The notes under the pieces were generated by a model. The model saw only the letters and a program-made list of their open reading frames with translations, was not told where the DNA came from and made no database searches. The translations under genes were made by a program, and so were the position numbers. From NCBI RefSeq assembly GCF_000744835.1, contig NZ_JQMS01000001.1, positions 2,170,001 to 2,234,000 of the forward strand: DNA of 64,000 bases. The letters run 5' to 3'. Origin of the DNA: Flavobacterium sp. 83 (GTDB lineage: Bacteria > Bacteroidota > Bacteroidia > Flavobacteriales > Flavobacteriaceae). This document shows positions 47,532 to 62,897 of this stretch, in pieces. How positions within the stretch are numbered: the stretch's first letter is position 1; each line of letters opens with the position of its first letter.

Positions 47532-48569
47532 TTAAGGTTGTTGTCTCAGTTCAAGAAGTAATTCATTAATATTCATTTTAGCAACTGCAATATGTTTGTC
47601 AGCGGCACCATAGTATATGTAAAGGTCATCCCCGAATAATGAATGTCCGGTTGGGAAAACAACATCGTTAACTTCGCCTTCTATTTCCCATTGTTTAGTA
47701 GGAGAGAAAAGGGGATAGGGTAATCTGGATATTTCAATTTCAGGTTTTTCTAAATGCAATAAAGCTGCCTTTGCATGATAGATTTTACCAGTTGTAGTTT
47801 CGTGAACCCCATGATAAATTAATAGCCATCCGTATGGGGTTTCTATAGGTGGTACTCCGGCTCCAATGTAACTCGTTTCGTAGGCATCTTTTGGGTCTAA
47901 AAGAATATGATTGGTCAAGTTCTGTAAGTAGTTTTCCCAAAAGAATAGGTTTAATTCCTCCCAGTTGTTGAACTTTACAATTTGAATTCCGGGCCAGATT
48001 CTATGCAGGAGGACAAATTGTCCATTGATTTTTCTTGGAAACAAGACTACATCTTTATCACGAAGTAATCGGGTTTCATCATTTTTTATTCCTATTTGTT
48101 CAAAAAGGTTGTAATACTGGTGGTATTTGGGGTTTAATTTATTGGCATTACACAAATTTACATGACTTTCATATTCTTGATAGTTAACCTGAGGAGTAAT
48201 TATGCCATGTTTTTTAAAATGAATCAAATCTTGTGAAGTCGCCAGTGCTCCCATAGCATTGATACCGTCATAAGCGGTATAGGTTATGTAATAAGTATCT
48301 TCAATTTTTACAATTCTGGTGTCTTCGACTCCTTGTTTTTCATAATCAAAGTCTTGAATAATAATGGGTTTTTCTTTTCGTTCTACTATTTTTAATGGGC
48401 CTTCTGTTCTCGCATATCCTATAGTCGAAAGATTTCCATTTTGTACTGCTCGGTATAAAAAATGAACTGTATTTCCCTCTTGGTACACACCAGGATTTAA
48501 AACGCCTGCGTTTTCAAATACTCTTTCGGTTGGACTTAGTATGATACCAAGTTTTTCTATCGTAACCAT
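47532..48569 (-). CDS. GH130-family protein (glycoside phosphorylase-like)
   Basis: A 345-residue five-bladed beta-propeller enzyme of glycoside hydrolase family 130, which contains mannosyl phosphorylases and related hydrolases. Seen: RVFENAGVLNPGVYQEGN, KQGVEDTRIVKIEDTYYITYTAYDG, GAGVPPIETPYGWLLIYHGV and the closing GAADKHIAVAKM, all family signatures. No signal peptide, so it is cytoplasmic. It is placed between the MCE protein gene and a GT4 fusion, which suggests work on a mannose-type glycan made or recycled by the neighbouring enzyme; that link is inference. Confidence 0.88.
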   Translation of the reverse strand: MVTIEKLGIILSPTERVFENAGVLNPGVYQEGNTVHFLYRAVQNGNLSTIGYARTEGPLKIVERKEKPIIIQDFDYEKQGVEDTRIVKIEDTYYITYTAYDGINAMGALATSQDLIHFKKHGIITPQVNYQEYESHVNLCNANKLNPKYHQYYNLFEQIGIKNDETRLLRDKDVVLFPRKINGQFVLLHRIWPGIQIVKFNNWEELNLFFWENYLQNLTNHILLDPKDAYETSYIGAGVPPIETPYGWLLIYHGVHETTTGKIYHAKAALLHLEKPEIEISRLPYPLFSPTKQWEIEGEVNDVVFPTGHSLFGDDLYIYYGAADKHIAVAKMNINELLLELRQQP

Positions 48570-48613
48570 GCGTTTGTTTTTTGTGATTGTTTATCGGGAA
48601 CGGATTCAGACTC

Positions 48614-49591
48614 TTATTTTTGCTGCTCTTTCAATTTTGCTTTTTCCTGTTTTTTAAAATAGCCCCGAAATAAAAAATTATGTTTTAAAGCTTCCATATT
48701 TTCATTTAACCGGAAACTGGCTTCATTTACGTTTTTCATTGTTGAGTCTATTTTCTGCACTAAATTTGGGTCATTCGAAAGGTAATTAATAGCCCCTTTC
48801 CCTTCCTTAATATTTACAATTGTCGAATTAAGATTGGTTATTACGTTGTCTATTTTAGTGCTGGATTCATCTAGGTTTCGGACAATTGTTTTTATATTAT
48901 TGGCGACAGCCGTATCTTTCAAAACACCTATCACATTGTCTTTATTATCTAAAGAAGCAATTAGTTTATTTAATCTGTTTACGGATTCAGAGGTTCCTTT
49001 TCCTGTGATTTTTAAATAATGCATGGTTTCTTTGAGGTCATTTGCAAGAATGGAATCCCGGATTAATAAACCTACAGTTCCTTTTCCTTGAGTAATATCC
49101 TTTGTGATTTTAAGTAAATCAGCGGTAAGAAGCGCTGCATTTTTATTAGTCAGACCAAGTGTATTAAGCATGTCATCAGTACGAATGCGACTTTTTGATT
49201 GAATCGCATCACCAGGTTTTACAGATGCTTCCATGCCTTTTCCGGGAATAATATTGATAATCATGTTTCCTACTAATCCATCAGAACCTATTGTGGCAAT
49301 TGCATTTTTTCGGATGTGAAAAAAAATAGCTTTGTCAATAAGCATATCAACTTTAATAGTGGAATCATTGATCATTTCAATTCCGCGAACCGTGCCTACA
49401 TTTATCCCGGAATAACGCACGTTGTTGCCTATTTGCAAGCCGTTTACATTATCGAAAATTGTTTCTAAATGATTCGTTTTTCCAAACATTTTTTGCTTAT
49501 CGCCAATGAAATAAACAGCTAGAATGAAAACTAATAATCCGATTATTACAAAAAGTCCAAGACGTATTTTTTGTGATGTCGTTTTTTCCAT
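48614..49591 (-). CDS. mlaD: MlaD-like MCE-domain protein
   Basis: Substrate-binding subunit of an Mla-type lipid transporter. It has a single N-terminal membrane helix (about residues 9-27, LGLFVIIGLLVFILAVYFIG). Next comes an MCE domain (about 38-115, NHLETIFDNVNGLQIGNNVRYSGINVGTVRG), then a long coiled C-terminal region built of repeated helical units with Asn/Ile heptads. The length, 325 residues, exceeds that of E. coli MlaD and is usual in Bacteroidota. It lies just downstream of the ATPase and permease genes, in the same operon. Confidence 0.92.
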   Translation of the reverse strand: MEKTTSQKIRLGLFVIIGLLVFILAVYFIGDKQKMFGKTNHLETIFDNVNGLQIGNNVRYSGINVGTVRGIEMINDSTIKVDMLIDKAIFFHIRKNAIATIGSDGLVGNMIINIIPGKGMEASVKPGDAIQSKSRIRTDDMLNTLGLTNKNAALLTADLLKITKDITQGKGTVGLLIRDSILANDLKETMHYLKITGKGTSESVNRLNKLIASLDNKDNVIGVLKDTAVANNIKTIVRNLDESSTKIDNVITNLNSTIVNIKEGKGAINYLSNDPNLVQKIDSTMKNVNEASFRLNENMEALKHNFLFRGYFKKQEKAKLKEQQK

Positions 49592-49600
49592 TTTTATTTT

Positions 49601-50353
49601 TTATTTAAAGAATGCTTGTACTTTAGGATCTGTTGAGGTTGATAATTCCTCAAAACTCCCTTCGGAATAATTGATACCATCAACCAGTAAAATCATTCTG
49701 TTCGAAATTACTCTGGCACAATCCACATCATGCGTGATAATAATAGATGAAGTATTGTATTTTTTCTGGATAGAGATCATCAGCAATAAAATTTCTTTAG
49801 CAGTTATTGGATCTAATCCAGTTGTGGGCTCATCATATAAAATTATACTAGGTTGTAATATTAAAGTTCTGGCTAAAGCTATCCTGCGTTTCATTCCTCC
49901 TGAAAGTTCTTCGGGCATTAAGTTTATAGTATGTGCCAGCCCTACATTTTCTAATGCTTCCATCACTAATGGAGTTGTATCCTTAATGACCCCGAATTTT
50001 TTAGTGTGACGTCTCAAAGGGAACTCTAGATTTTCTCTGACGGTCATCGAATCATAAAGTGCACTTCCTTGAAAAAGAAACCCAACCTCTGTTCTGAGTT
50101 CATCTAATTCTTCGTGGTTAAGTAAACTGATATCTTTTCCCATAATCATAATGAATCCACTATCAGGTTGTTCTAATCCAATTAAGCATTTTATCATAAC
50201 TGATTTTCCGGAACCTGATTTTCCCATTATAACCAAATTTTCACCTTCATTTAAAACCATATTAAATCCATCCAAAACATGATTGTCACCATAGCTTTTA
50301 CGTAAGTCTTTGATTTCTATAATGGGTTTTTGATTTTGTATTGGTGTATCCAT
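49601..50353 (-). CDS. mlaF: ATPase of Mla-type lipid transporter
   Basis: ABC ATPase that drives phospholipid transport between the membranes. Walker A GKSGSGKS, signature ELSGGMKRRIALARTL, Walker B IILYDEPTTGLDP and the switch His in IITHDVDCARVI are all present, in 250 residues. LSGG followed by MKRR is typical of the MlaF branch. It lies 6 nt after the permease gene and 9 nt before the MCE gene. Confidence 0.94.
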   Translation of the reverse strand: MDTPIQNQKPIIEIKDLRKSYGDNHVLDGFNMVLNEGENLVIMGKSGSGKSVMIKCLIGLEQPDSGFIMIMGKDISLLNHEELDELRTEVGFLFQGSALYDSMTVRENLEFPLRRHTKKFGVIKDTTPLVMEALENVGLAHTINLMPEELSGGMKRRIALARTLILQPSIILYDEPTTGLDPITAKEILLLMISIQKKYNTSSIIITHDVDCARVISNRMILLVDGINYSEGSFEELSTSTDPKVQAFFK

Positions 50354-50359
50354 AATCAG

Positions 50360-51142
50360 TTATAAATCATAAAAAATATTAGTAACAAAAACCGCAATAA
50401 AGTCAATGATAAAAAGCAGCATAGAAGTGAAAACCACCGCAGAGTTTGCCGCCAAACCTACACCGGCAGTTCCTTTTTTACAATTATACCCTTTGAAGCA
50501 ACCCACTAATCCTATGGCAAACCCAAAAAAGAATGTTTTAATGGTTGCCGGAATTAAATCCCCAAATTCCAATGCATTAAAAACTTGGTTGTAATACAAT
50601 AAAAAAGAAACATTTCCTTTTATGTTTTCGACTAAATAGGAACCAAAAATAGCAATGAAATCTCCAAAGAAAACCAAGACAGGAAGCATAAAAGTAGTGG
50701 CTAAAACCCTTGTAACCACTAAATATTTGAAGGGGTTAGTCCCTGAAACCTCCATCGCATCAATTTGTTCAGTAACCCTCATGGAGCCTAACTCAGCACC
50801 AATACCGGAACCGATACGTCCTGCGCAAATCAAAGCCGTAATTATAGGTCCAATTTCTCGTATTATCGAAATACTCACCATTGATGGCATCCAGGAAACG
50901 GCACCAAATTCCTGTAGTGTAGGTCTGGATTGTAAAGTGAATACTAAACCTATTATAAATCCTGTAACCGCGACCAGGAGCAGGGATCGGTTTCCCATGT
51001 AATAACATTGCCTGATAAATTCTTTGAATTCGGAAGGGCGTTTAAACGCTTCTTTAAAAAAACGACCTGCAAAGTAGGATAGTTCACTAATTTCAAGTAA
51101 AATTTTTTTGAATAATTCTGCTATTTTAAAAATACTATCCAT
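50360..51142 (-). CDS. mlaE: MlaE-type lipid transporter permease
   Basis: Inner membrane permease, 260 residues, with five to six membrane helices. The family signature is visible in VTGFIIGLVFTLQSRPTLQEFGA, IREIGPIITALICAGRIGSGIGAELGSMRVTEQIDAMEVSG and GCFKGYNCKKGTAGVGLAANSAVV. It heads the five-gene run of mlaE, mlaF, mlaD, GH130 and GT4. An exact -7 element lies about 40 nt upstream. Confidence 0.93.
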   Translation of the reverse strand: MDSIFKIAELFKKILLEISELSYFAGRFFKEAFKRPSEFKEFIRQCYYMGNRSLLLVAVTGFIIGLVFTLQSRPTLQEFGAVSWMPSMVSISIIREIGPIITALICAGRIGSGIGAELGSMRVTEQIDAMEVSGTNPFKYLVVTRVLATTFMLPVLVFFGDFIAIFGSYLVENIKGNVSFLLYYNQVFNALEFGDLIPATIKTFFFGFAIGLVGCFKGYNCKKGTAGVGLAANSAVVFTSMLLFIIDFIAVFVTNIFYDL

Positions 51143-51502
51143 ACGTAAATGAATTAATTTTTAATACAAAAAAGGCTACTCAAATATACAATTATTTCAT
51201 TGATTATCAGTGGTTTTGTGTACTGTTAATCTGTTTTTTTGATGCGTTTGTCGAGAAAAAAAGGATTATAAAAAAGTACAGTAAAATTAAGCAACTAATG
51301 GGGTAGTTCTTATCTTTTTACAAATGAGAATTTAAGGAAGAGTACTGTATTATTAATTAAAAATGGGCAAGAGCCCGACCATAATTAATTTAAAAAAAAA
51401 CTAGTTTCAGAAACACTTTTAGCTCATAAAAACTATCAAATATTGGTTGTAGTCAGCGAGTTGAAATAATTTTTTAAAACGATGATGGCATTTTGTACAA
51501 AA
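51143..51502. other. Intergenic region between cbpM and mlaE
   Basis: 360 bp without a gene. Besides the mlaE -7 element it holds an inverted repeat at 51352-51389 (ATTAATT/AATTAAT around GGGC/GCCC) containing AGCCCGACC, the same string as in the family B repeats, so it may be a worn repeat copy. An A run follows it, in the wrong place for a terminator of either flanking gene. Confidence 0.5.
51181..51188 (-). promoter_or_regulatory. -7 element upstream of the mlaE operon
   Basis: TATATTTG on the minus strand is an exact TAnnTTTG; the ATG at 51142 lies 38 nt away. A -33 TTTG is not evident. Confidence 0.5.
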
Positions 51503-51796
51503 TCAACTTTCGTATAACCGCAATCGGTTTTTAACAGAAGTCAGTTCGTTTTGTAAGGCTTCTATTTTTTGTAAAAGATTAAATACAACATCAATTCCTT
51601 GCGTATTAACGTCTAATTCCTGATGCATCCGAATCATTTTGTCAATTTCAAAAATGGCATCAGGATGAATGTATTGTTTTTCTTCGATTGTTTTTATTTC
51701 GAGCAATCCCATTTCGCTTAGATTATTAAAAAAAGCAATTTCTACTTTGTAATGGGTGGTTAGTGTAGGTAAGGGGATGAGGTTTTCTATGTTCAT
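51503..51796 (-). CDS. cbpM: Chaperone modulator CbpM-like protein
   Basis: A 97-residue MerR-like helical protein that in E. coli binds the J domain of CbpA and inhibits it. The segments [43 protein letters not shown] and a C-terminal coiled helix fit this family. It overlaps the end of the CbpA-like gene by 4 bp, the standard cbpA-cbpM pairing, which supports the assignment. Confidence 0.88.
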
Positions 51797-52695
51797 GTCT
51801 TTCTTAACTTAGCAAGTTCTGTAAATAATTCTTTTTCTTTTTCGGTAAGGTTTGTGGGAATTTGAATTTGATAGGTAAGGTACAAATCTCCAAATTCTCC
51901 TTCTTTTTTATAAATGGGAAATCCTTTTCCTTTTAGCTTTACTTTGGTTCCGTTTTGAGTCCCGGGTTTTACCGTAAGTTTTACTTTTCCGTCAAATGTG
52001 TCTGCGGTAATGTCTCCACCCAATAGGGCGGTATATAAATTTAAATCAACAGTGGAGTATAAGTTGTGTTTATCCAGCTTAAAATTAGTGTGGTTTTCAA
52101 TAGCGAAAGTGATATATAAATCCCCTTTTGGTCCGCCACCGGATCCTTCTCCTCCAAGACCGCTTATTTTTATCTGTTGTCCATTTTCAACACCGGCAGG
52201 AATTGTAATTCGGATGTTTTTACCATTGATTGTTAAGGTTCGTTTATGGCTAGTGTAAACATCTTTTAGATTCAGATGCAATTCAGTACTAAAATCCTGT
52301 CCTTTAAATTGGGCGCTACGACCACGATTTTCACCTCCTGATGCACGACCGCCAAACATAGATTCAAAGAAATCCGAAAAATCACCACCACCGCTAAATC
52401 CTCCAAAACCTTCTTGTTGTCCGCCTCTTGAATACTGTCCTTGCTGTTTTGCTTGTTCATATTGTTCAGCATGCTGCCAGTTTTCACCGTATTCATCATA
52501 TTTTTTGCGATTTTCCGCGTGGCTCAACACTTCGTTGGCTTCATTGATTTCCTTAAATTTTCTTTCCGCTTCTTTATCGTTTGGATTTAAGTCGGGATGG
52601 TATTTTCGAGCCATTTTGCGATATGCTTTTTTTATATCAGCTTCCGTTGCTTTTTTATCCACTTCAAGGATTTTGTAATAGTCTATAAATGCCAT
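51793..52695 (-). CDS. cbpA: DnaJ-family chaperone CbpA
   Basis: Co-chaperone of DnaK in stress. The J domain is at residues 4-68 with the HPD motif in [13 protein letters not shown] Gly/Phe-rich linker ([24 protein letters not shown]) follows, then the two C-terminal substrate-binding domains ([42 protein letters not shown]). The zinc-finger domain of true DnaJ is absent, so it is CbpA-like. The linked downstream cbpM is its probable modulator. It lies 46 nt after the DUF2061 gene. Confidence 0.93.
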
Positions 52696-52741
52696 CCTGG
52701 ATTGTTTTTATAATTATTATAAAGATCAAGTTGTATTGATT

Positions 52742-52990
52742 TTAACTTTTTAGGCTCGTTTTTCCCCATTTTATTGTATCCCAAATCCTCTCATGGAAAA
52801 AATAAGCAACTGATGTATAAATGTTACTTATAATCATAAAACCGAGTGCTATTTTTATTTGTCTGGTAAATAAATAAATAGAGATAAAATCAAGAATCAA
52901 AATAATCGCTCTGTAACTGACTGTTTTTAGAATTGATCTTCTAATTGTTTCTTCAGCACGCGTTTTGTGGGGAAGAAGTTTTTCTATCAT
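52742..52990 (-). CDS. DUF2061 membrane protein
   Basis: An 82-residue protein with the DUF2061 features: a basic start (ETIRRSILKTVSYRAIILILDF), two membrane helices and the ending FFHERIWDTIKWG. It overlaps the universal stress protein gene by 4 bp, so they are co-translated. Function of the family is unknown. It recurs next to stress genes in several phyla. Confidence 0.88.
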   Translation of the reverse strand: MIEKLLPHKTRAEETIRRSILKTVSYRAIILILDFISIYLFTRQIKIALGFMIISNIYTSVAYFFHERIWDTIKWGKTSLKS

Positions 52991-53412
52991 GACTTAATTG
53001 GTATTATAAATATTGGTATTTCAGAATGACGGATTATTTTTTCAGCGACGCTGCCCATAATTAAATGCGAAAATCCGGTTCTGCCATGTGTACCCAAAAC
53101 AATTACATCAGCATCCCATTCTTTGGCCACTTTCAAAATCACTTCATAAGGTATTCCTTCTTCTACAAAAGTCCAAACCTTATGATCCTTAAACACGGTT
53201 TCAACAAGCATTTGTTGGTTTTTTTTGTAATCATTTATGGCGAAGTCTGCAAACTCTTTAGGAGTTACTGCACCATCCGTAATAAGTGATGTCAAGTCAA
53301 CAACGCTCAACAACGCAATTTCTGCCTTTAGTTGAAGACCAAGTTGAAAACCATTCAAAGCAATTTTTTCTGAAGTGGGATCATTGTCAACTGCGATTAT
53401 TATTTTTTTCAT
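52987..53412 (-). CDS. Universal stress protein
   Basis: A UspA-fold protein of about 141 residues. The ATP-binding motif G-2x-G-9x-G(S/T) is seen in LGTHGRTGFSHLIMGSVAEKII near the C-terminus, so nucleotide binding is likely. The start MKKIIIAVDND at 53412 is preferred over 53421 because it gives the usual N-terminal strand. It heads the run USP, DUF2061, cbpA, cbpM. Confidence 0.9.
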   Translation of the reverse strand: MKKIIIAVDNDPTSEKIALNGFQLGLQLKAEIALLSVVDLTSLITDGAVTPKEFADFAINDYKKNQQMLVETVFKDHKVWTFVEEGIPYEVILKVAKEWDADVIVLGTHGRTGFSHLIMGSVAEKIIRHSEIPIFIIPIKS

Positions 53413-53495
53413 GATCTTCATGTCTCTGGGGTTTACTTTAATTTAAATATCCAGAAGTACTAAAAACAACCTACTAATAGGCTTATTTCTATAAT

Positions 53496-53503
53496 CAAAT
53501 TTA
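53496..53503 (-). promoter_or_regulatory. -7 element upstream of the universal stress protein operon
   Basis: TAAATTTG on the minus strand is an exact TAnnTTTG, about 80 nt before the start codon. No matching -33 element was found, so regulation by another sigma factor or an activator is possible. Confidence 0.4.
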
Positions 53504-53657
53504 GTCAATTTTTTGTTTATAAAATTGAATAATGCCTTTTATTTCAGTTATTTATAATTTTTAAAAAGCTGTAATTTGGAGTTTTTTTATAAGTAGATAA
53601 TAAGCAAAAACGGAATTTAATTTGTTAGATGTTTAATAGCTTTTGATTTCGTTTTTG

Positions 53658-54122
53658 TTAGAATTGGATAGTGCCATATTTATTTATGATAGCCATTTGT
53701 CCGGAATGGTAAGTTGTATGTGATAGAATTCTTCCAAAGGCTTCTGCTTTTGTCTTGGTACCAAATTCTTTTGTAGTTATGGTTGTTTCCCAATCTGTTT
53801 CTGATTGTTTTTCCACAATGGATTGTAAACTTTTAAATGAAAATGCAACATATTCCTTTAATTCATCCAGATTAGTCCATTCACCAGTATCTTTTTGCGC
53901 AATTACAGTTTTGGCAATAACTTTTATTTCGCTGTTGCCAAAGATATTTTTTGCAAAAAGTAATTCTACATCTCCAATATGGCGTATTAAAAAGCCAAGA
54001 CTGTTAGGAGATGGGGCTAATTTCTTTTTCAAATCATTTTCAGTGAAATGTTCCAATTGATTTGTAAATCGAGTTCGGGCTTCATGCCAAAGTTCAATAA
54101 ATAATTGCGTATTTGATTTCAT
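53658..54122 (-). CDS. DinB-like family protein
   Basis: A 154-residue four-helix bundle of the DinB superfamily. Metal-ligand histidines are expected in SLGFLIRHIGDVELLFA and in GRILSHTTYHSGQMAIINKYG, the latter containing the HxxxH-like pair. The function may be thiol transfer or unknown. It lies downstream of the reverse transcriptase terminator, so it is probably a separate unit and not part of the retron. Confidence 0.84.
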   Translation of the reverse strand: MKSNTQLFIELWHEARTRFTNQLEHFTENDLKKKLAPSPNSLGFLIRHIGDVELLFAKNIFGNSEIKVIAKTVIAQKDTGEWTNLDELKEYVAFSFKSLQSIVEKQSETDWETTITTKEFGTKTKAEAFGRILSHTTYHSGQMAIINKYGTIQF

Positions 54123-54213
54123 AGTATTTAAGTGTTTACCATATCTTGATGCATACTGTTTTTAATTGTTTTATAAGCTTATAATCGGATCTATTTCGTT
54201 GTTTTAACAACGT

Positions 54214-54248
54214 GAAAAAGCCCCAAATTTGGAGCTTTATTTTTTTTT
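54214..54248 (-). terminator. Terminator of the retron unit
   Basis: AAAGC-CCAAA and TTTGG-GCTTT pair around a near-palindromic centre with one C/A mismatch. On the minus strand a T run follows, right after the reverse transcriptase stop codon at 54254. It separates the retron from the DinB-like gene. Confidence 0.8.
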
Positions 54249-54253
54249 AATTT

Positions 54254-55315
54254 TTAAATAGGGATCAATGCATCTTCGAGTTCTTTCTGATCTTGCTTCT
54301 TTTTTAAGTCAATCAGTATAGATTTGTAACTTATAAATTCAGTATCTCTTGGATTGATTTGTAAAACAAAATTTATTTTTCCTAACAAGTGTTCCAAATA
54401 ATTCTTTTGATCAATTTCTTTGTATTCACGATGTTCTTGAAAACCAAATTTCTTAATATAATACATCGCCTGTCTTAAATCATTGCGTTTGTAAAATACG
54501 ACTTGCGGTTTTTCATTGACCACAATGCCTGTAACTGTTTGACGTGTATTAGGCATCATGAGTTTTGTTTTGTTTTTATTGATTTTTAAGTTTAATTTTT
54601 CAATAACTTCAGTCACTTTATGAAGCAATTTATTTTCATTAAAATCACCTGAAAAACTCAAATCATCTGCATAACGGGTATATCTTATTTTGTGTTGTTT
54701 GCAATAATCGGAAATAGCTTCATCTGCATCTTTAAAAATTAGATTTGAAAGATAGGGACTAGTTGGGGCTCCTTGCGGCAAACTGCCGTCTTTGGTACAT
54801 AATCTTGAAAGTAGTTTGGATACCATTTTTGAATAACCTAATTCCCGAAATTCCTTTTCAACTTTTTCGATTGTAATGGATGGAAAGAAATGCTCTAAAT
54901 CCAATGTAAAAACTTTAGGTTGGTTTTTATGGAACCTTAAATTTTCCAGGATGCATACATTAGGTTTATACGCTTTTGCAAAAGGACTAATGGCTACCTT
55001 ATAAAGAATGTTCCTGAGAATCCAGATTTGGATTTCTTTCAAACTGGGCAGTGGCTCTGAAATGAGTCGTTTGCTTCCATTTTTTTTTAAGATTTCAAAA
55101 TCACGATAAAAATAGCGTGGAAAAAGGGATACTTTTTTTAGGTATTCCTTTTTATATCCTAACAGAAGGGATAAATGACTTGGATTGTAAATTACGGGAA
55201 CATCGTGTGAAAATAAAACCTCAGCATACTCCAGACAATGTTCTATGTTTTGCTCTATATAGCCCATTTTATGAGCTTCTTCTGTAAAGCTTTCTTTGTA
55301 TTGTGTAAAATCCAT
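54254..55315 (-). CDS. Retron-type reverse transcriptase
   Basis: A 353-residue RNA-directed DNA polymerase of the retron kind. The palm motifs are in order: RLISEPLPSLKEIQ near 84, the X-region-like N125-L-R-F-H129 (retron NAxxH with Leu for Ala), FTLDLEHFFPSI with catalytic Asp139, LPQGAPTSPYLSN at 179-191, YADD at 215-218, and the retron Y-region VTG at 261-263 in QTVTGIVVN. No maturase, endonuclease or protease domain is attached. The start ATG at 55315 overlaps the predicted end of the structured RNA segment upstream, the usual retron layout. Retrons make a branched RNA-DNA hybrid and most act in phage defence with an effector protein; no standard effector is adjacent here. No group II intron or DGR features were found. 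Confidence 0.93.
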   Translation of the reverse strand: MDFTQYKESFTEEAHKMGYIEQNIEHCLEYAEVLFSHDVPVIYNPSHLSLLLGYKKEYLKKVSLFPRYFYRDFEILKKNGSKRLISEPLPSLKEIQIWILRNILYKVAISPFAKAYKPNVCILENLRFHKNQPKVFTLDLEHFFPSITIEKVEKEFRELGYSKMVSKLLSRLCTKDGSLPQGAPTSPYLSNLIFKDADEAISDYCKQHKIRYTRYADDLSFSGDFNENKLLHKVTEVIEKLNLKINKNKTKLMMPNTRQTVTGIVVNEKPQVVFYKRNDLRQAMYYIKKFGFQEHREYKEIDQKNYLEHLLGKINFVLQINPRDTEFISYKSILIDLKKKQDQKELEDALIPI

Positions 55316-55480
55316 AGCGATGAAATCGTTAATGGAGCAGGGACTATTTTGTCCCTGACCCCGATTAAGAATACCGGTTTAAAAGTTCGGAGCTCTGCGG
55401 AGAATCTTTTAAACCTGGTGCTTGAAAGAGCATTCAATTACAGAACAGTGACTCACGGTTCCGTCGCTAGCCTAGACTAA
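55315..55480 (-). ncRNA. Candidate retron msr-msd RNA
   Basis: Structured non-coding segment between a 41-codon ORF and the reverse transcriptase start. Seen on the minus strand: TAGCGA (55469-55464) can pair with TCGCTA (55320-55315), extended inward to 12 of 14 pairs with G-U allowed, joining both ends as a1/a2 do in retrons. GTGAGTCACTGTTCTG near 55456-55441 resembles the GAGTTACTGTCTG region of the Ec86 RNA. A 13-bp stem with one bulged A lies at 55373-55419, and a hairpin with a perfect 7-bp core CAGGGAC/GTCCCTG, extended by TTAAT/ATTAA, at 55329-55368. Which hairpin is msd, and the branching G, cannot be settled; TAGC at 55469-55466 also resembles the Ec86 branch region. Confidence 0.68.
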
Positions 55481-55483
55481 CAA

Positions 55484-55498
55484 ATTTCTTTGAGAAAT
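55484..55498 (-). other. Small hairpin just upstream of the retron RNA
   Basis: ATTTCT-CAA-AGAAAT forms a 6-bp stem directly after the stop codon of the 41-codon ORF, and outer CTAG/CTAG can add four pairs. It could be the 5' end of the retron RNA or a separator between ORF and RNA. Confidence 0.4.
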
Positions 55499-55501
55499 GA
55501 A

Positions 55502-55627
55502 CTAGAAAAACAATTCATCCTGACTTGGAATAAATACTGTTTTACGGTCTAATTTCGGAATTTTACTTTCGAAATCCTTTTGAATCCAATCCTCTTTTTT
55601 TTTTGTTTTTATTCGGTGTGGTTCCAT
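55502..55627 (-). CDS. 41-codon ORF upstream of the retron RNA
   Basis: An open frame from ATG (55627) to TAG (55502) codes for a 41-residue, strongly basic peptide beginning MEPHRIKTKKKEDWIQKDF and ending with FIPSQDELFF. A-rich leader sequence precedes the ATG, as is usual for genes here. It ends about 25 nt before the retron RNA candidate and is on the same strand. I recognise no family. It may be a small retron partner, a leader peptide or chance; conservation next to related reverse transcriptases would decide. Confidence 0.45.
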   Translation of the reverse strand: MEPHRIKTKKKEDWIQKDFESKIPKLDRKTVFIPSQDELFF

Positions 55628-55800
55628 TTTTTTAAATTCTAAATTAACTTTTTAAAATATTTAAAACGTTTATTTTTAGTGAATTAAGTATATAAAGTTA
55701 CGAAAAATATTGAATTAATAGTTGCTGTGAACATTATTTTTTTAACAGTTTCAGTATGGTTATAATTGATTTTAAACTTTTGTAAATTACAATTGACTGA

Positions 55801-56955
55801 TTACGAATAAAAACGTTTATATGGGGTATAGGTGACAGCTATTTCAATTAGCCGGGTGATGATGTATGAAAATAAATTAATCAATCTAGAAAAAAAATGG
55901 GTCTTTATTTTAAGTGATTCAAGGGTTATGCTCTCGCACTCAGTAATAATTTGATTGAGATGGGATTGATACATTTTTGAAAATACCGCTGAATTTATTT
56001 CGACATTCATTTCCACACTTCCATAGGAACTTAAATTGTTTAAGTTAAAGGAGCCTATAGTAGTCCAGTAGCCATCTATAACAGCTGATTTTCCGTGTAA
56101 AACGGATTTGTTCCATTCGTATAATTCTATATTGTAATGCAGCAGTTTGCTGTAAAGAAAACAAGTTGCCCGCCGCGTCATGGGTAGATCCGAAATACCG
56201 GTTAGTATCAATTTAATTTTCACGTTGTTTTTGGATGCTTTATTTAGCGCTTTAATGATCCGAATTCCTGGAAGGAAATAACTTCCCACGATGATTATTT
56301 CTTTTTTGGCATGACGAATGGATTTGATGTATCCATCACAAATTTCGTTTTTTCTCTTTAGCCAGTCATTTTGTATAATCCTCACTATGGCATCTTCTTG
56401 TACATGAAATACCGATTTTATTTTTTGGCTGCTTAAGCGTTTTTTCTTAAAATAAATGTTCCTGCAAAGTGCTTCTAGTGGTTGAGCAATTGTACCATTT
56501 AGTTGTACTGCGTAGTCAAGCCAAGGAGCTTCTGTATGTGTTCCGTGGTATTTATCAGCAATGTTTATACCGCCTATAAGTGCAATTTTTGCATCAGCAA
56601 TGATTACTTTTTGATGCAATCTTCTGCCAAGATAAAACGTATATGCTGAAAATAATGGTGCAAAAAAACGAATCTGTATTCCGCTTCGTCTCAGTTCATC
56701 TATTATTTCAGAAGGGAATGATAAAGATCCCAAACCATCCAAAAGAATGAAAATTTTAACTTTTCGAGAAGCTGCTTCTTTTATTGCTGTAATAATTCTT
56801 TTTCCAGTTGTATCAATTTCAAAAAGATACATTTGGATGTGAAGTTCTATCTGGGAGTTACGGATAATAGTTTCCAATCTTGAAAAATAATCTTCGCCAC
56901 TATATACAAGCTCCAGATTTTTAGGAGCAATGAGGCTAATTTTACTTTTAATCAT
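55801..56955 (-). CDS. Phospholipase D/cardiolipin synthase-like protein
   Basis: A 384-residue protein with two HKD motifs: H114-x-K116-x4-D121 in LHQKVIIADAKIALIGG, and HGKSAVIDGYWTTIGSFN in the second half. It therefore has the two-site fold of cardiolipin synthases and PLD nucleases. The N-terminal membrane helices of classical cardiolipin synthases are missing; a hydrophobic stretch near the C-terminus (LINLFSYIITRLIEIAVTY) may bind membrane. Its start overlaps the end of the site-2 protease gene by 8 bp. It may make lipid or cut nucleic acid; the first is favoured by the RRLHQKV form. Confidence 0.85.
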   Translation of the reverse strand: MIKSKISLIAPKNLELVYSGEDYFSRLETIIRNSQIELHIQMYLFEIDTTGKRIITAIKEAASRKVKIFILLDGLGSLSFPSEIIDELRRSGIQIRFFAPLFSAYTFYLGRRLHQKVIIADAKIALIGGINIADKYHGTHTEAPWLDYAVQLNGTIAQPLEALCRNIYFKKKRLSSQKIKSVFHVQEDAIVRIIQNDWLKRKNEICDGYIKSIRHAKKEIIIVGSYFLPGIRIIKALNKASKNNVKIKLILTGISDLPMTRRATCFLYSKLLHYNIELYEWNKSVLHGKSAVIDGYWTTIGSFNLNNLSSYGSVEMNVEINSAVFSKMYQSHLNQIITECESITLESLKIKTHFFSRLINLFSYIITRLIEIAVTYTPYKRFYS

Positions 56956-58045
56956 GTGATTTTTTTATTTTAACCTCATTAATCAGGATAAATTCCAAAA
57001 TATTCTCAATGTCTACCGTTCCTATAAGTTCATTGTTGTCCATAACGAGCATTAATGTTGATTTATTTTGTTGAATTAACTCAAAAACATTTTCTAAAAG
57101 AGAATTGCTTTCGAGGATAATTAAATTTCGATCCATAACATTATAAATAAATTCGTCATCCCCTTTTTTAGAAAGTGCCATTATAATTTGATCCCGATTC
57201 AGTGTTCCAACAGGAATGTTATTTTCAGTAATTAAAAAATTCTTGTTTTGGCTGTCCAGTAATAATTCTATTGCTTTTTTTATTTTCTCATCTAAATTTA
57301 TTGTCTGATAGTCTTTCATAACCACATCTTGAACTTTAAAGCCTTTCAGAATAAATTTTGATTCGGTATAATCAGCTTCAATTTGTGCGCCTATGATAAC
57401 AAAAATGCCTATAAAAATTAAAAAAGGAGAGGTGAAAAAGCCTAAAATAATAAAAGATAATGCTAAGAATTGACCAATACGAGCGGCGATTCTAGTCGCA
57501 ACATTTCGAGGAAGTTTAAAGGATAATAAAGCCCGTAAAACTCTGCCGCCATCCATAGGGAATGCCGGGATTAAATTGAAAATTGCCAACCAAAAATTGA
57601 CTAAAAAAAAGTTCAAAAAGAAATTATTGGCATTAACGCCATCGGATAGTTCAGCCATTAACTTGCCCGTATCTTCAGGAATCGAAATAAAAAGTGCCGT
57701 AATAAATGCCAGAGCAATATTTACTAATGGTCCTGCAAAAGCAACAATTAATTCTTCTGTTGGTTTTTCAGGGATTCTTTCTAACCGTGCTAAACCCCCA
57801 ATGGGTAAAAGGGTGATGTCCTTTGTTTTTATATTGTAGTTTTTTGCGGCTAATGCATGTCCTAATTCGTGCAATAAAACAGTAATGAAAATGCATAAAA
57901 TAAATACAACTGACCAAATTATTTGTGTGGTATTTTGGCCTGCTCTGTAGTTCATGAAAATGATAAATAGAATAATTAATGAAAATGTCCAGTGAATAAA
58001 TATTCCAATACCAGCTACTTTTCCGAGTTTAAATGATCCTTTCAT
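56948..58045 (-). CDS. Site-2-protease family metallopeptidase with CBS pair
   Basis: A 365-residue intramembrane zinc protease. The active site is H59-E-L-G-H63 in TVLLHELGHALAAKNY within a membrane helix, with the third ligand in AFPMDGGRVLRALLS. About six membrane spans are followed by a C-terminal CBS pair (QDVVMKDYQTINLDEKIKKAIELLLDSQNKNFLI; YNVMDRNLIILESNSLLENVFEL), which could sense adenine nucleotides. This Rip3-like architecture is usual in stress regions. It overlaps the downstream PLD-like gene by 8 bp. Confidence 0.9.
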   Translation of the reverse strand: MKGSFKLGKVAGIGIFIHWTFSLIILFIIFMNYRAGQNTTQIIWSVVFILCIFITVLLHELGHALAAKNYNIKTKDITLLPIGGLARLERIPEKPTEELIVAFAGPLVNIALAFITALFISIPEDTGKLMAELSDGVNANNFFLNFFLVNFWLAIFNLIPAFPMDGGRVLRALLSFKLPRNVATRIAARIGQFLALSFIILGFFTSPFLIFIGIFVIIGAQIEADYTESKFILKGFKVQDVVMKDYQTINLDEKIKKAIELLLDSQNKNFLITENNIPVGTLNRDQIIMALSKKGDDEFIYNVMDRNLIILESNSLLENVFELIQQNKSTLMLVMDNNELIGTVDIENILEFILINEVKIKKSHD

Positions 58046-58143
58046 TTTTTGAATTTTTTAATACAATTAGCCCTAGTACGATTAGAAAAAAACGTGTAAA
58101 TAATAAAAATCAATAGCTTGTATTTGCTATAAACAGTGCTTTT

Positions 58144-59133
58144 TTAGCTTATTTCATTTTCAGAAATACCCTTATATGCCCAAGCATTTAAATTTGCAAC
58201 AGTGGTGTGGGCAATTCCTTCTAATGCTTCAGTTGTTAAAAAACCTTGATGTCCAGTAATCATTACATTGGGATAGGAACGGAGTTTTAGAAATAAGGAA
58301 TCCTTTATAGGAGTATCCGTATGATCTTGAAAAAAGATAGGTTTCTCTTTTTCATAAACGTCCAATCCTGCTGCGCCAATCATTTTGTTTTCAATCGCGT
58401 CCAATAAATCTTCTGTGTTAACAATGCCTCCACGGGCTGTATTTATAAAAATAACTTCTTTTTTCATTTGTAAAAAAGTGGTTTTATTAAACAAATGATT
58501 TGTAGTCCCGTTGAGTAAATAATGAACAGAAATCACATCAGAATTAGCACATAAATCCTCGATTGAAACATAGGAAATTGGGATTGCACTCATCAGTTCT
58601 TTGTTTTCCTGCTTATCAAAAGCTAAAATTTTACATCCAAAACCATGCATGATTCTGGCAAATGCGGCCCCTATTTTTCCAGTACCAACAATGCCTATTG
58701 TTTTTCCGTGCAAATCAAAACCCACTAAATGGTCTAAACGATAATCTCCAATTTGCATTAACGTTTGACCTAAAACCAGTTTTCTGTTTAAAGCCATTAA
58801 TAGCGCAACGGCAAGTTCAGCAATGGCATAAGGTGAATATTCAGGTACGTTTGCCACTTTTATTCCCAGTGATTTTGCTCTTGCTAAATCGACATGGTCA
58901 TAACCTACAGAGCGGAGCGCAATGTATTTGACACCATAGGAATATAGTTTTTCTACTATAGTTTCTGAGGCATCATCCGAGGTGAAAAGGGAAACGGCAT
59001 CAAAGCCTTTGGCAAGATTTACGGTATTTTCATTTAAAGTTTGCTCTGTAAAAACAAATTCGTGATTACCGTGCGCTGCTCTTTCCAAGAAAGGTCTGTC
59101 AAAGCCCAATATACTATAAACTAATACTTTCAT
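58144..59133 (-). CDS. D-2-hydroxyacid dehydrogenase (D-lactate dehydrogenase type)
   Basis: A 329-residue NAD-dependent enzyme, probably interconverting pyruvate and D-lactate. Rossmann motif GIVGTGKIGAAFARI near residue 150, catalytic Arg in INTARGGIVN, Glu in YEKEKP and His in ITGHQGFLTTEAL, the last being the D-lactate dehydrogenase pattern. It overlaps the acyl carrier protein gene by 20 bp and follows it on the strand. In this setting it would dispose of pyruvate or NADH when oxygen is low, which is inference. Confidence 0.9.
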   Translation of the reverse strand: MKVLVYSILGFDRPFLERAAHGNHEFVFTEQTLNENTVNLAKGFDAVSLFTSDDASETIVEKLYSYGVKYIALRSVGYDHVDLARAKSLGIKVANVPEYSPYAIAELAVALLMALNRKLVLGQTLMQIGDYRLDHLVGFDLHGKTIGIVGTGKIGAAFARIMHGFGCKILAFDKQENKELMSAIPISYVSIEDLCANSDVISVHYLLNGTTNHLFNKTTFLQMKKEVIFINTARGGIVNTEDLLDAIENKMIGAAGLDVYEKEKPIFFQDHTDTPIKDSLFLKLRSYPNVMITGHQGFLTTEALEGIAHTTVANLNAWAYKGISENEIS

Positions 59134-59380
59134 TTTTGTTGTTTTTTGCTGTAAGATAGGAGATTAATGATGATAAGGTAGTGATTTTTCCATAATCTTC
59201 TTCCGGAATTTCAATTCCTAATTTTTCATTTAATGCAACAATGAATTGCAATGAATCAAAAGAATCGATATTGAGCGTTTCTCTGATGTTTTCATCGGGT
59301 TTTAATTCCGAAGGTTCTGTATCCGGAGCAATTTTTTTAAGTAATTGAAAAATTATATTTTTAATATTTTCAGGACTCAT
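59114..59380 (-). CDS. Free-standing acyl carrier protein
   Basis: An 88-residue acidic carrier protein. The phosphopantetheine serine is Ser40 in LNIDSFDSLQF, with the usual Asp before it and a conserved helix after it. It is not the fatty-acid ACP by context: its start overlaps the end of the E2 gene by 4 bp and its end overlaps the D-2-hydroxyacid dehydrogenase gene. It may carry an acyl group for an acetyl-CoA-linked reaction of the island. Its partner enzyme is unknown. Confidence 0.88.
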   Translation of the reverse strand: MSPENIKNIIFQLLKKIAPDTEPSELKPDENIRETLNIDSFDSLQFIVALNEKLGIEIPEEDYGKITTLSSLISYLTAKNNKNESISL

Positions 59381-60573
59381 AATAATTCAGGATTTTGCAA
59401 ATGTTTGTTTAAGGTAACTAAAAATCGACTGCCTGTTAATCCATCCGTAGCACGATGATCACCTGCTAATGTTACGTTTACAAAGGAGCCTATGCCTATC
59501 ATACCGTTCTCGGCAAGTGGCTGTTCGAGTACACTTCCAAAAGCAATTATGGCGACTTGTGGCGGATAAATTACACCAAAAACAGAGTCGGCTCCTCCAT
59601 CACCAATATTCGTTAATGTTATAGTGGAGTCGCTCAATTCTGAACTTCGTAATCTCATAGCTCTTGCTCTTGGAATAATATCACTTAAACTATCCATGAT
59701 TTCATCAACATTTTTCTTGTCAACTTGATGAATAGCCGGGACAATTATACCGCCCGTGCGAAGCGAAACCACAAAACCAATATTAATATTTTTCTTTAGT
59801 TGTAAACCATTATCCCAAATAGCATTCAAATCCGGAAATTCAAGTAGCGATTTTGCAGTTGCTTTAATCAATAATACAACGGGCAACAATCTTTTTTTTA
59901 TGACCCGATGCTCGTTTGCTACTTGTAACCAAGCCAATGCATTTGTCAGATTGATTTTTTTCTCCAAATAATAATGGGGGATTTCCCGGTTAGATTTACT
60001 CATCGCCGCGGCTACAGCAGTCCGAATTGCCTCACCAGGTTTGGTAATTTTCTCTTGTGGGAGTGTTTGCGTATTTTCGATTTCAATTTTTTCACGTTCT
60101 TCAATCGCATTATCAACATCTTCTTTGGTTATAGCTCCATCAGAACCGGTTCCTTTTATTTTAGAAAGATCAATTTTGTTGTCTTCAGCAATTCTCTTGG
60201 CTAATGGAGACGCTTTGATAATCGTTTCTACTGTTTTTTCAATTTTAATTGGTTCCAATATCTTTTCCTCTATAGGTTGTAACGCTATTGGTACATCCAG
60301 AGTAATTTTTGGATCTTCTTTGCTTTCCAATTCAACTTCGCTTGAATTTATTAAAGCCATTACAGTACCCACAGGGACTTTAGTTCCTTCTTTAATGAGC
60401 AATTGGTCTATAATTCCCTCGTCAAATACTTCAATCTCAATAAGGCCTTTCTGTGTTTCCACTTCGGCAATAATATCACCTCGCTTTACGGTATCACCTT
60501 GTTTTTTTTTCCATTCTATTAAAGTACCGTCTTCCATATCTGCGCCCAAACTTGGCATTAGAAATTCAATCAT
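59377..60573 (-). CDS. Dihydrolipoamide acyltransferase (E2) of a 2-oxoacid dehydrogenase
   Basis: A 398-residue E2 core protein. One lipoyl domain (Lys42 in [11 protein letters not shown]), a peripheral subunit-binding domain near 130-165 ([21 protein letters not shown]) and the catalytic domain with [13 protein letters not shown] containing the active-site His. It overlaps the E1-beta gene by 8 bp. Together with E1-alpha and E1-beta it makes a pyruvate- or acetoin-type dehydrogenase; the E3 component is not in the window. Confidence 0.92.
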
Positions 60574-61564
60574 GGCGTATCATTTTTTTTACTGTATTAA
60601 CAATATCATTTCTTTGCGGAATTGCCGCTTCTTCAAGATGTGCTGAATAAGGAATAGGAACTTCTATGCCGCACAATCGTTGTACAGGGGCATCCAAGTC
60701 ATAAAAGGCTTTTTCCATAATTCGGGCACTAATTTCAGACGAAATACTTACGGAACGCCATGCATCTTCTACAACAAGCACCCGATGAGTTTTGGCCACT
60801 GAATCAAGGAATGTTTTTTCATCTAATGGCCGTAATGTGCGTAAATCAATCACTTCAGCTTCAATTCCTACAGTTGCTAATTCTGTTGCTGCTTCCAGAC
60901 ATTTATAAACACCAGTTCCATACGTAATGATGGTGATTGCAGTTCCTTCTCTAAGTACTTTTGCCTTATTGATAGCGACTGCTTTAACATTAGTCTGTAT
61001 TTCTTTTTCTAGATTAAGCATAGATGTGTATTCAAATAAAATAACCGGATCCGGACTTTGAAGCGCCAACTGTAACATACCTCGCGCGTCCTCGTGCGTA
61101 CCAATGGATAAAACAATTAATCCCGGTATGTGCGCATAAAATGGTTCCCAACTATGGGAATGTTGCGCGCCCAATTGCCGCCCGATTCCACATCCCATTC
61201 GTATGACAACAGGGTTGTGTAATTGTCCACCAGACATGTGTTGTAAAGTAGCTGCATTGTTAACAATTTGATCCATGGCAAGTAAACTGAAATTAACGGT
61301 CATGACTTCAATAATAGGTTTCATTCCAGCCATTGCGGCTCCAATTCCGGCTCCTACAAATCCAGCTTCGGAAAGCGGTACATCCATAATACGTTCTTTT
61401 CCAAATTCCTCAAGAAGTCCTTTGCTTACTGCAAATGCACCGCCATAACGACCTACATCTTCTCCCATCAGAAAAACGAGATCGTCATTTTGCAATGCTT
61501 CTCGAAGGCCTTGTTTCAGAGCTTCTCGATAGGTTATTTTTATTTTCCTTACACTATTTTCCAT
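60566..61564 (-). CDS. 2-oxoacid dehydrogenase E1 component, beta subunit
   Basis: A 332-residue transketolase-like subunit. Seen: [57 protein letters not shown] and the C-terminal [18 protein letters not shown]. It pairs with the E1-alpha gene upstream, from which it is separated by a zinc-ribbon gene. The acetoin dehydrogenase and pyruvate dehydrogenase forms cannot be told apart from sequence alone. Confidence 0.93.
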
Positions 61565-61576
61565 GGACTAAATGGA

Positions 61577-61843
61577 TTATATTTGTTTACTTTTCCAACG
61601 TTTTAAGGCAGGTAAAATAGTAACCGCTTTTTGGATCATATAATTGGGAAGTTTCATTTTCTCCATTTTATTTTGGACTTTGTCTTTCATTTCGTCCAAG
61701 TTCATTTTTGGATTTTTAAATGCACCGTCCTGATAACAATACCTGCAATAATCATTGTTTTTTGCACCATTCTCTTCTGTCCCTTTTATTTCCTCAGTGC
61801 TAAGTGGCATACCACAACTTTGGCAAAATGCATTGATTTTCAT
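61577..61843 (-). CDS. Small zinc-ribbon protein between E1 subunit genes
   Basis: An 88-residue protein from MKINAFCQSCGMPLSTEE. Four cysteines in CQSCG and CRYCYQ would bind one zinc ion. A helical C-terminal part (NLDEMKDKVQNKMEKM...AVTILPALKRWK) follows. An upstream ATG at 61900 would add 19 residues with two more cysteines (KKCKLCRNN), which fits less well. Similar proteins are annotated as putative zinc-ribbon proteins, of unknown role. Its place between E1-alpha and E1-beta is unusual. Confidence 0.75.
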   Translation of the reverse strand: MKINAFCQSCGMPLSTEEIKGTEENGAKNNDYCRYCYQDGAFKNPKMNLDEMKDKVQNKMEKMKLPNYMIQKAVTILPALKRWKSKQI

Positions 61844-61907
61844 GATGTTATTTTTTAGTTGGTTATTTCTACATAATTTGCATTTTTTTTTTGTATTCAT
61901 TCAAAAT

Positions 61908-62897
61908 TTAGCTTTCGCTGTAAACAAATTTTGTCAATTGGTCCAGATGTTCCCAGGTTCCTGCTTCCGCAAAAGCTACTGCGAGTTTTATTTTCATTTC
62001 TATTTTACTTTCAAACGCTGCAATTTCCGTTTCAGTTATCCAATTTTTTTGCAAAAGATAGTTTTCGAATTGTGGAATCGGGTCTCTTTTTTTCCATTCT
62101 TCAACTTCCTTTTTATCACGATATAACTCGGCATCAAACATGGAATGGGCTCTGAAACGGTACGTATTACAAACTAATAAATAGGGCTTGCTCGAGCTTC
62201 TTACTTTTGCGACAGCTATATTTGCGGCTTCAACTACCGCCATCAAATCCATTCCGTCGACTGCTGCTGATTCAATTCCGTAACTGGCTCCTTTTTTTTC
62301 CAGTTCAGTCATTGCATGTGTGTATTTTAAGGCCGTTCCCATAGCGTAGAGATTGTTTTCACAAACAAATAAAACAGGAACTTTCCATAGTGCTGCTAAA
62401 TTCAATGCTTCGTGAAATTCTCCTTCGGCAGCAGCACCTTCACCAAAAAAACAGCAGGTAATTGTTGCTTTTTTTTGTTTTTTAGAAGCCAGTGCCATTC
62501 CTACTGCTAAAGGAAGATGACTGCAGACAATTGCGTTACCTCCATAAAATTTTTTAGAAGCATCAAACAAGTGCATGGAACCGCCCCGACCTCGGCTACA
62601 GCCTTCTTGTTTGCCATACATTTCAGCCATGATAATATCAGCATCAATGCCTCGTGCTAATGCGTGACCGTGTTCACGATAGGTACTTAATACATTGTCA
62701 TCATCCGTCAATGCTTGGGTTATACCTACGGCTACAGCTTCTTCTCCAATATATAAATGCAGGAATCCTCTAATTTTTGCTTTGGTATATTGTTCAGCAG
62801 CTTTTTCCTCAAAGCGTCTGATGAGCAGCATTTGATACAAAAGCAAAAGTCCTTTTTTTTCATCCATTTGGCTTGGTATTGTTGCTGGCTGTACCAT
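61908..62897 (-). CDS. 2-oxoacid dehydrogenase E1 component, alpha subunit
   Basis: A 329-residue thiamine-diphosphate enzyme subunit. The cofactor motif is FFGEGAAAEGEFHEALNLAALWKVPVLFVCENN, and RGGSMHLFDASKKFYGGNAIVCSHLPLAVGMA precedes it, as in pyruvate and acetoin dehydrogenase E1-alpha. It starts the PDH-type set E1-alpha, zinc ribbon, E1-beta, E2. It is located 88 nt past the PDZ remnant. Confidence 0.93.
   Translation of the reverse strand: MVQPATIPSQMDEKKGLLLLYQMLLIRRFEEKAAEQYTKAKIRGFLHLYIGEEAVAVGITQALTDDDNVLSTYREHGHALARGIDADIIMAEMYGKQEGCSRGRGGSMHLFDASKKFYGGNAIVCSHLPLAVGMALASKKQKKATITCCFFGEGAAAEGEFHEALNLAALWKVPVLFVCENNLYAMGTALKYTHAMTELEKKGASYGIESAAVDGMDLMAVVEAANIAVAKVRSSSKPYLLVCNTYRFRAHSMFDAELYRDKKEVEEWKKRDPIPQFENYLLQKNWITETEIAAFESKIEMKIKLAVAFAEAGTWEHLDQLTKFVYSES

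Follow-up and report, generated by a model that had tools for sequence, protein, structure and literature searches.

Background

Does the stretch at positions 54,214 to 55,627 of the window (the whole 64,000 nucleotides of Flavobacterium sp. 83 DNA that were analysed) hold a complete retron, as a first-pass annotation had proposed, or something that a retron has become? Retrons are now seen mostly as phage defences resembling toxin-antitoxin systems, and the lineage described here bears on what a retron without an effector may do. The locus clearly derives from a type III-A retron, yet it does not fit the definition of that type, the effector and the winged-helix (WH) protein both being absent. 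From comparisons of sequence, we think that it is probably a reduced, vertically inherited and effectorless III-A derivative, which maintains the reverse transcriptase (RT), the non-coding RNA (ncRNA) and a putative docking peptide.

The reverse transcriptase

The gene at 54254-55315 (minus strand) codes for a protein of 353 residues, and the motifs by which it had been recognised are all present where they were said to be (NLRFH at residues 125-129, Asp139, YADD at 215-218 and VTG at 261-263). Its best profile is PADLOC RT_III-A (517 bits), with residues 1-340 matching profile positions 1-340 of 341; RT_III-A models take the first three places in the PADLOC ranking and an Ec107-like retron RT the fourth. 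In NCBIfam, the retron St85 RT model reaches 231 bits, slightly under its cut-off of 235, and the group II maturase (63 bits), Drt2 (55) and Drt3a (47) score far lower; the closest relative in the PDB is the retron Ec86 RT (141 bits). Judged by profile scores, the enzyme does not group with group II, DGR or Abi/UG RTs, which bears out the earlier view of a retron-type enzyme and supports its assignment to the III-A family. No other match to this RT is present in the 3.79-Mb genome (E up to 0.001).

YADD is conserved in all 28 RTs of the reduced form described below, VTG in 26 of them, and pooled over ten hand-picked pairs of related sequences the RT has an omega of 0.115 with a dS of 0.67. Region X reads NL[KR]FH in 28/28; relative to NAxxH, the NLRFH of the window retains N and H and has the A substituted, and the strict motif is also missed by 12 of the 14 other RTs compared. 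Two of 16 validated retron RTs deviate from NAxxH as well, according to the available part of PMC6868368.

Distribution and origin of the reduced form

The usual order in III-A relatives is PRTase toxin, WH protein, ncRNA and RT. In the reduced form the PRTase is absent and the WH gene is represented by its C-terminal tail only; it is seen with the RT of the window and with 27 more Flavobacterium RTs, all distinct. Among named genomes, a scan found 22 relatives of the RT, six of which (L017-L020, L022 and L023) have a PRTase and a WH protein upstream (fused in L022, as far as this can be read; in L020 the two are PRTase_III-A and WH_III-A in PADLOC). The remaining 16, all labelled Flavobacterium or Flavobacteriaceae, have the tail ORF only. 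When 299 Flavobacterium genomes were sampled, the RT was found in 25, in the reduced form in 24, of which 23 have no stop within the RT match (the other being G237); the 25th genome (G259) has a distant locus with 40% RT identity and with a WH-like gene and a PRTase beside the RT. Wider samples contained the RT in 7 of 395 genomes of the phylum and 6 of 397 of the family, and contributed nine additional loci: one reduced (L050), seven with PRTase-like and WH-like genes (L051-L053, L055-L058) and L054. Three plasmid relatives, out of six matching records, have a gene for 285-300 residues and one for about 105 residues ahead of the RT, and one of these upstream genes is annotated as a phosphoribosyltransferase.

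How often the reduction took place was approached with a tree of 42 RTs (28 reduced, 14 not) left after identical sequences had been collapsed (12 identical pairs merged). Neither this tree nor the dN/dS estimates include L029 (G237), whose RT has a stop at codon 6, or L023, in which the contig ends within the RT; for L022, L054, L055 and L056, RT sequences lacking the N-terminal residues were used in the tree. On this tree, which has long branches among the non-reduced sequences, the label reduced/other switches once, and one switch suffices in 78% of the bootstrap trees. Since support is 80/53 for all 28 reduced RTs and 97/91 for the 27 without L048, a single origin of the reduction is likely, not proven.

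Two loci deserve a separate word. The reduced retron that has diverged most (L048/L070, with 62% RT identity) belongs to G043, a genome of 2.0 Mb, where it occupies a different site and adjoins genes that we take to be yaaA-like and rplT-like (ribosomal protein L20-like). In L054 (G550, bases 297-1195), the genes ahead of a III-A-like RT code for a DUF4365 protein, which corresponds to the PADLOC candidate PDC-M02A, and for a protein of 122 residues, in what looks like another effector replacement. As to the hosts of the reduced form, many species of L002-L015 are, we believe, isolates of cold places such as glaciers and Antarctic lakes. A count of 83 retron RTs in cold-adapted bacteria has been published, and the main text of that paper, as far as available, does not name Flavobacterium (PMC11124354).

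A 41-residue ORF retained from the WH protein

The region upstream of the RT gene had been described as a structured non-coding stretch. The structured RNA is indeed there (see below), but the upper part of the stretch is an overlooked ORF of 41 codons at 55502-55627 (minus strand), which adjoins the 5' side of the ncRNA and ends 186 bases ahead of the RT start. Its product matches positions 67-101 of the 101 of the PADLOC profile WH_III-A (E 3.4e-8) and shares 21 of 43 aligned residues with the C-terminal end (residues 62-104) of a complete WH protein, that of L017. Thus, of the accessory protein of III-A retrons, the C-terminal tail alone is found here, as a separate ORF; a search of the window genome with the full WH protein returned this ORF as its only match, and a second tail-bearing protein was not found in that genome. 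Among 5.8 billion proteins searched there are 16 homologues, 14 of them of exactly 41 residues, and all are named "hypothetical protein" wherever the source gives a name.

Could this be a mere upstream ORF, its product having no role, through which the ncRNA and RT are regulated at the level of translation or transcription? It is short and stands immediately ahead of the ncRNA, as such an element would. Over the same ten hand-picked pairs, however, its omega is 0.167 with a dS of 0.56, near that of the RT (0.67), which argues that it is constrained as a protein and, given the similar dS, disfavours constraint at the RNA level alone. (In very close pairs the differences are too few to judge; L006 and L007 differ by no synonymous and three non-synonymous changes.) This amino-acid-level constraint, the homology with the WH tail and the higher mean pairwise identity of the tail (0.45) as compared with the WH domain (0.33) in 11 full WH proteins all speak against a purely regulatory ORF, which we regard as highly improbable.

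What the tail looks like can be judged from a structural model of the L017 WH protein, in which residues 1-70 form helices and a two-stranded wing (pLDDT 85-90) and residues 71-104 an unconfident tail (pLDDT 48-55, a value that may also reflect a shallow alignment). As the ORF aligns with residues 62-104, it would correspond essentially to this tail in the model; the 41-residue peptide alone has no confident predicted fold (pTM 0.27). A fold search of the PDB with the WH model placed winged-helix regulators among the best matches, the top one being weak (E 0.028), and a search for solved structures of the WH or the PRTase protein gave no relevant match. Not every ORF of the group ends in a free F: in three of the 28 loci (L042, L045 and L047) the ORF extends 7-9 residues past this usual end, into the 5' flank of the ncRNA.

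A profile of the tail (17 tail ORFs and 3 full WH proteins, 102 positions) had three matches in 395 genomes of the class, all adjoining a III-A RT; as scoring was confined to the 12 best candidates of each genome, this does not prove that the tail is absent elsewhere. The 122-residue protein of L054 ends in a sequence similar to the tail (hhalign E 0.001, with a probability of only 21%). Taken together, these data suggest that the tail may be a connector with a putative binding role, able to sit on different proteins.

The ncRNA and its flanking signals

Between this ORF and the RT gene, the ncRNA region (55316-55501, minus strand like all the elements described in this section) is supported by alignment and covariation. 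In agreement with the first-pass annotation, the RNA upstream of the RT gene is structured: its fold beats 100/100 dinucleotide shuffles (z -3.61). When 33 sequences (from 28 reduced and 5 full loci) are aligned, pairing holds in 96.2% of the cells, and for 22 of the 39 pairs both sides have changed in a way that keeps the pair; none of 500 shuffles reaches either value, the structure having been derived from the same alignment as the covariation count. If the partners are slid by 1-3 columns, pairing falls to 40-53%. Stem-loop 1 (55465-55482) has double-sided changes across relatives in 8/8 pairs, and stem-loop 2 (55442-55462) is paired in 100% of the cells. They are followed by a long covarying hairpin (55378-55413), which we regard as the candidate msd stem, and by a terminal hairpin (55334-55362), immediately ahead of a conserved ATTAACGATTT stretch at the a2 position. 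Structure and covariation thus point to a structured RNA of the msr-msd kind beside the RT gene; and because pairing and covariation hold over reduced and full loci alike, the ncRNA is conserved across the loss of the toxin. Rfam gave no match over 52500-57500 at E up to 1, and in ten genomes searched for a second copy, only matches of 18-21 bases were found besides the locus itself.

The outer signals are less distinct. A promoter-like box, TAACTTTA (55693-55700), lies 73 nt ahead of the 41-residue ORF and is of the TAnnTTTG type, presumably the Bacteroidota promoter consensus. A match to TAnnTTT[GA] is present 51-98 nt upstream in 28/28 reduced loci, a loose pattern that AT-rich DNA may also yield by chance. 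The terminator said to close the RT gene is half confirmed: a hairpin exists 3' of the gene at 54217-54238 (-11.2 kcal/mol, z -3.0) and may be a terminator, but a strict terminator scan finds none there, and the longer T-run is that of the plus-strand side.

Is the a1/a2 duplex still present?

Pairing between a1 and a2 sets up the priming of retron reverse transcription. In the four nearest full loci (L018-L020 and L051), this pairing amounts to -8.1 to -11.7 kcal/mol, equalled by 0-7% of shuffles, and in 27 reduced loci (L048 was excluded from the tests with swapped partners) its mean is -3.27 kcal/mol, against -3.40 when the partners are swapped between species. A test on fixed regions (with L042, L045 and L047 treated as if their ORFs stopped at the common position) gave p<0.05 versus shuffles in 0/28 reduced and 6/16 other loci, with medians of -7.4 and -13.1 kcal/mol, respectively; the window has the lowest energy of the reduced loci (-12.2 kcal/mol), with p 0.143 versus shuffles. 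It must be added that the other 10 of these 16 full or effector-bearing loci also fail to beat shuffles, and that in the full locus L017 no convincing a1/a2 was found.

Extending the search further upstream or into the RT gene, with regions of up to 120 bases, revealed no pairing in the reduced group that stands out from swapped partners (p 0.93, 0.87, 0.31 and 0.12). The same extended test on five full loci, some of them near-copies of each other, gave p 0.25, 0.13, 0.046 and 0.14, and since it is weak on full loci, the contrast between full and reduced loci rests on the energies and the shuffles. As the sequences are not independent, we read the result as a tendency and not as proof of absence. 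It may nevertheless signal a loss of canonical reverse transcription, despite the conserved YADD. An extension of a1/a2 is reported to increase the yield of msDNA in the accessible part of PMC11754653.

A chromosomal island with a pattern of vertical inheritance and occasional loss

The retron is flanked by a cardiolipin-synthase-like PLD gene (clsB, 55801-56955, minus strand) upstream and by what we take to be a dnaJ/cbpA-like gene (51793-52695, minus strand) downstream, both of which are context and lie outside it. The wider neighbourhood of the M50 protease gene (47532-62897) presumably comprises genes for a universal stress protein, DnaJ/CbpA-CbpM, MlaE-ABC-MCE and dehydrogenases of the E1/E2 type.

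This arrangement recurs in the reduced loci, with the M50 gene upstream in 27/28 and the CbpA-like gene downstream in 25/28 (the window was counted by its own coordinates, and L063 and L072 are repeats of L006 and L011). L070 (the L048 locus, at its other site), L021 (which ends behind the RT) and L068 depart from it. Within the DNA examined around the full loci L017-L020, none of these neighbours is found. Distances between RTs follow those between neighbouring proteins (Mantel r 0.81 with ClsB, 0.80 with M50 and 0.49-0.80 with five further neighbours; 14-27 loci per gene and 0/2000 permutations as high for each), and codon use of the RT is inside the range of the neighbouring genes.

The M50 gene is present in 32/299 Flavobacterium genomes, including 23 of the 24 with a reduced retron, so that the island can also be inspected where the RT is missing. 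Eight of nine such genomes were examined (G200, with a broken M50 match, was left out). In six of these islands clsB is followed directly by cbpA without a trace of a retron, and two contain remnants between the same two genes, namely a decayed, full-length fossil of the reduced retron in L113 (G294) and the 3' end of an RT, read by eye, in L107 (G089). These islands and remnants, together with the one copy that has a stop at RT codon 6 (L029), imply that the unit is dispensable. The pattern is that expected of vertical inheritance with occasional loss. Vertical inheritance has also been reported for some myxobacterial retrons (PMC6868368, in the part available).

One may then wonder whether the unit is just what decay has left of a III-A retron, functionless and about to be lost. 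The six traceless islands, the fossil, the 3' remnant and the stop-bearing copy would all be in line with this, as would the absence of the effector and of the WH domain and the undetectable a1/a2 pairing. We find it distinctly unlikely, however, because a relic should not show an omega of 0.115 for the RT and of 0.167 for the 41-residue ORF over diverged species, YADD in 28/28, covarying hairpins, and 23 of 24 genomes of the genus sample with no stop in the RT match. Selection thus appears to maintain RT, ncRNA and remnant 41-residue subunit as a unit in one Flavobacterium lineage.

The search for a toxin

There is no III-A PRTase effector at the locus. In trans, a PRTase profile run against 25 genomes with a reduced retron stayed at or below 22.4 bits in 24 of them, revealing no cognate toxin, whereas it was positive in 4/4 genomes with a full locus (90-396 bits); only G259 is an independent control here, because the other three genomes contributed sequences to the profile. 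The remaining genome with a reduced retron, G146, has a PRTase-like match of 66 bits in a frame of 432 residues (contig 33, 109780-110493), away from the retron and perhaps part of another defence system. In the 1500 bases ahead of each of the 28 reduced loci, a search for relics of PRTase or WH genes gave only weak tblastn matches (best E 0.001); we consider these to be due to chance, as the recurring PRTase ones fall inside clsB and the WH ones on the opposite strand. A toxin of another kind may still be encoded in these genomes. In any case, neither the III-A PRTase nor a folded WH domain is present and a1/a2 pairing does not rise above chance, so that the reading of the locus as a complete retron is not supported.

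Could a new effector have been recruited, either the neighbouring PLD/ClsB protein or the product of a gene elsewhere? The position of clsB directly upstream in 21/28 reduced loci invites the question, its product also matches, more weakly, DrmC of the DISARM system, and replacement of III-A effectors has been reported (Sda1) and is suggested by L054 (DUF4365). Yet clsB sits at the same place in all eight RT-free islands examined; in L010, L012, L014 and L015 the M50 and clsB genes lie about 7-8 kb off with other DNA between; and clsB was not found in L069, L070 and L074. Its product has as best model the cardiolipin synthase ClsB (244 bits, under the cut-off of 281), and the second tail-bearing protein that a recruited partner might be was not found in the window genome. 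We therefore think that recruitment is very unlikely.

A different proposal is that RT, ncRNA and peptide form an immunity or anti-addiction module, acting as a stand-alone antitoxin against the PRTase of incoming III-A retrons. Full III-A loci are present in the same family, in the phylum and on plasmids, and G259 has a PRTase beside its RT; the available text of PMC12548924 moreover describes a complex of RT, ncRNA and RT-DNA that restrains a retron toxin until the trigger arrives. The folded WH domain, a possible contact of the toxin, is nonetheless gone from the reduced form, and this role would rather predict a mobile element than a syntenic unit, which makes the proposal an unlikely one.

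A toxin-free particle?

The form best supported by these comparisons would be a toxin-free particle of RT, ncRNA and peptide. In full III-A retrons, we infer, the tail docks the accessory protein on the RT-ncRNA(-msDNA) particle; in the Flavobacterium lineage, the toxin would have been lost and the docking peptide would have stayed as an integral, stabilising subunit. Such a particle would be of use to the cell with no suicide involved, most likely as a sensor of nucleic acids, a decoy or a buffer (holding phage proteins or nucleases, for example) and not as a trigger of abortive infection. More tentatively, and as a possibility that we would not yet put at even odds, the lineage may have a resident toxin-free ribonucleoprotein, made of RT, ncRNA and a dedicated 41-residue subunit, which has no abortive-infection effector and possibly an altered priming of DNA synthesis, the latter being conceivable because the canonical a1/a2 duplex is unrecognisable.

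The lineage offers a natural minimal set, in which by comparison the tail stays with RT and ncRNA while the WH domain and the toxin can go, and it suggests that the tail would be a portable connector for effector swaps in III-A retrons. It also hints that a retron can be retained for a purpose other than the usual suicide defence. Should the unit make msDNA, a compact and toxin-free set of RT, ncRNA and peptide would be useful for the production of DNA in cells.

Comparison with known systems

As far as our searches went, two things are new, the persistence of the tail as a peptide and a locus that is fixed and vertically inherited; the literature matches listed do not describe the reduced form, and published classifications or a census of retron RTs may include this RT. 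The closest systems are the full III-A retrons L018-L020 (UBA6183, Cecembia, Roseivirga) and L051 (G475), which have the same RT family (61-62% identity), the same order of accessory gene, ncRNA and RT, closely similar hairpins and the same C-terminal tail. They differ in having their own PRTase, a WH protein of about 105 residues and a strong a1/a2, the first two of which are absent and the third undetectable in the reduced loci. Ec86, whose RT is the closest with a solved structure (141 bits), differs in retron type (II-A, we believe) and in effector.

Retrons without a clear effector were noted earlier in general terms (PMC8867640), and the available part of that paper describes neither a remnant peptide nor a lineage like the reduced Flavobacterium form. 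The myxobacterial Mxa1 (Mx162) resembles our case in its host-like codon use and its vertical inheritance within one bacterial group, and differs in that it belongs to another host group and that a peptide like the 41-residue one is not mentioned in the accessible text (PMC6868368).

The most instructive parallel is Retron-Sda1, as presented in the available part of PMC12548924. It is III-A1-like, its effectors being replaced by HipA/DUF3037, and the C-terminus of DUF3037 resembles the III-A1 DNA-binding protein; its operon defends against phage Bas51, and RT and ncRNA are not needed for this. Sda1 thus has, like the reduced loci, a III-A1-like RT and ncRNA without PRTase and WH protein, with a tail-like piece kept on another protein. 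The difference is that Sda1 has HipA/DUF3037, whereas in the reduced Flavobacterium loci an effector was not found and the tail stands alone. By analogy, the tail of the Sda1 DUF3037 protein would lend independent support to the idea of a movable tail.
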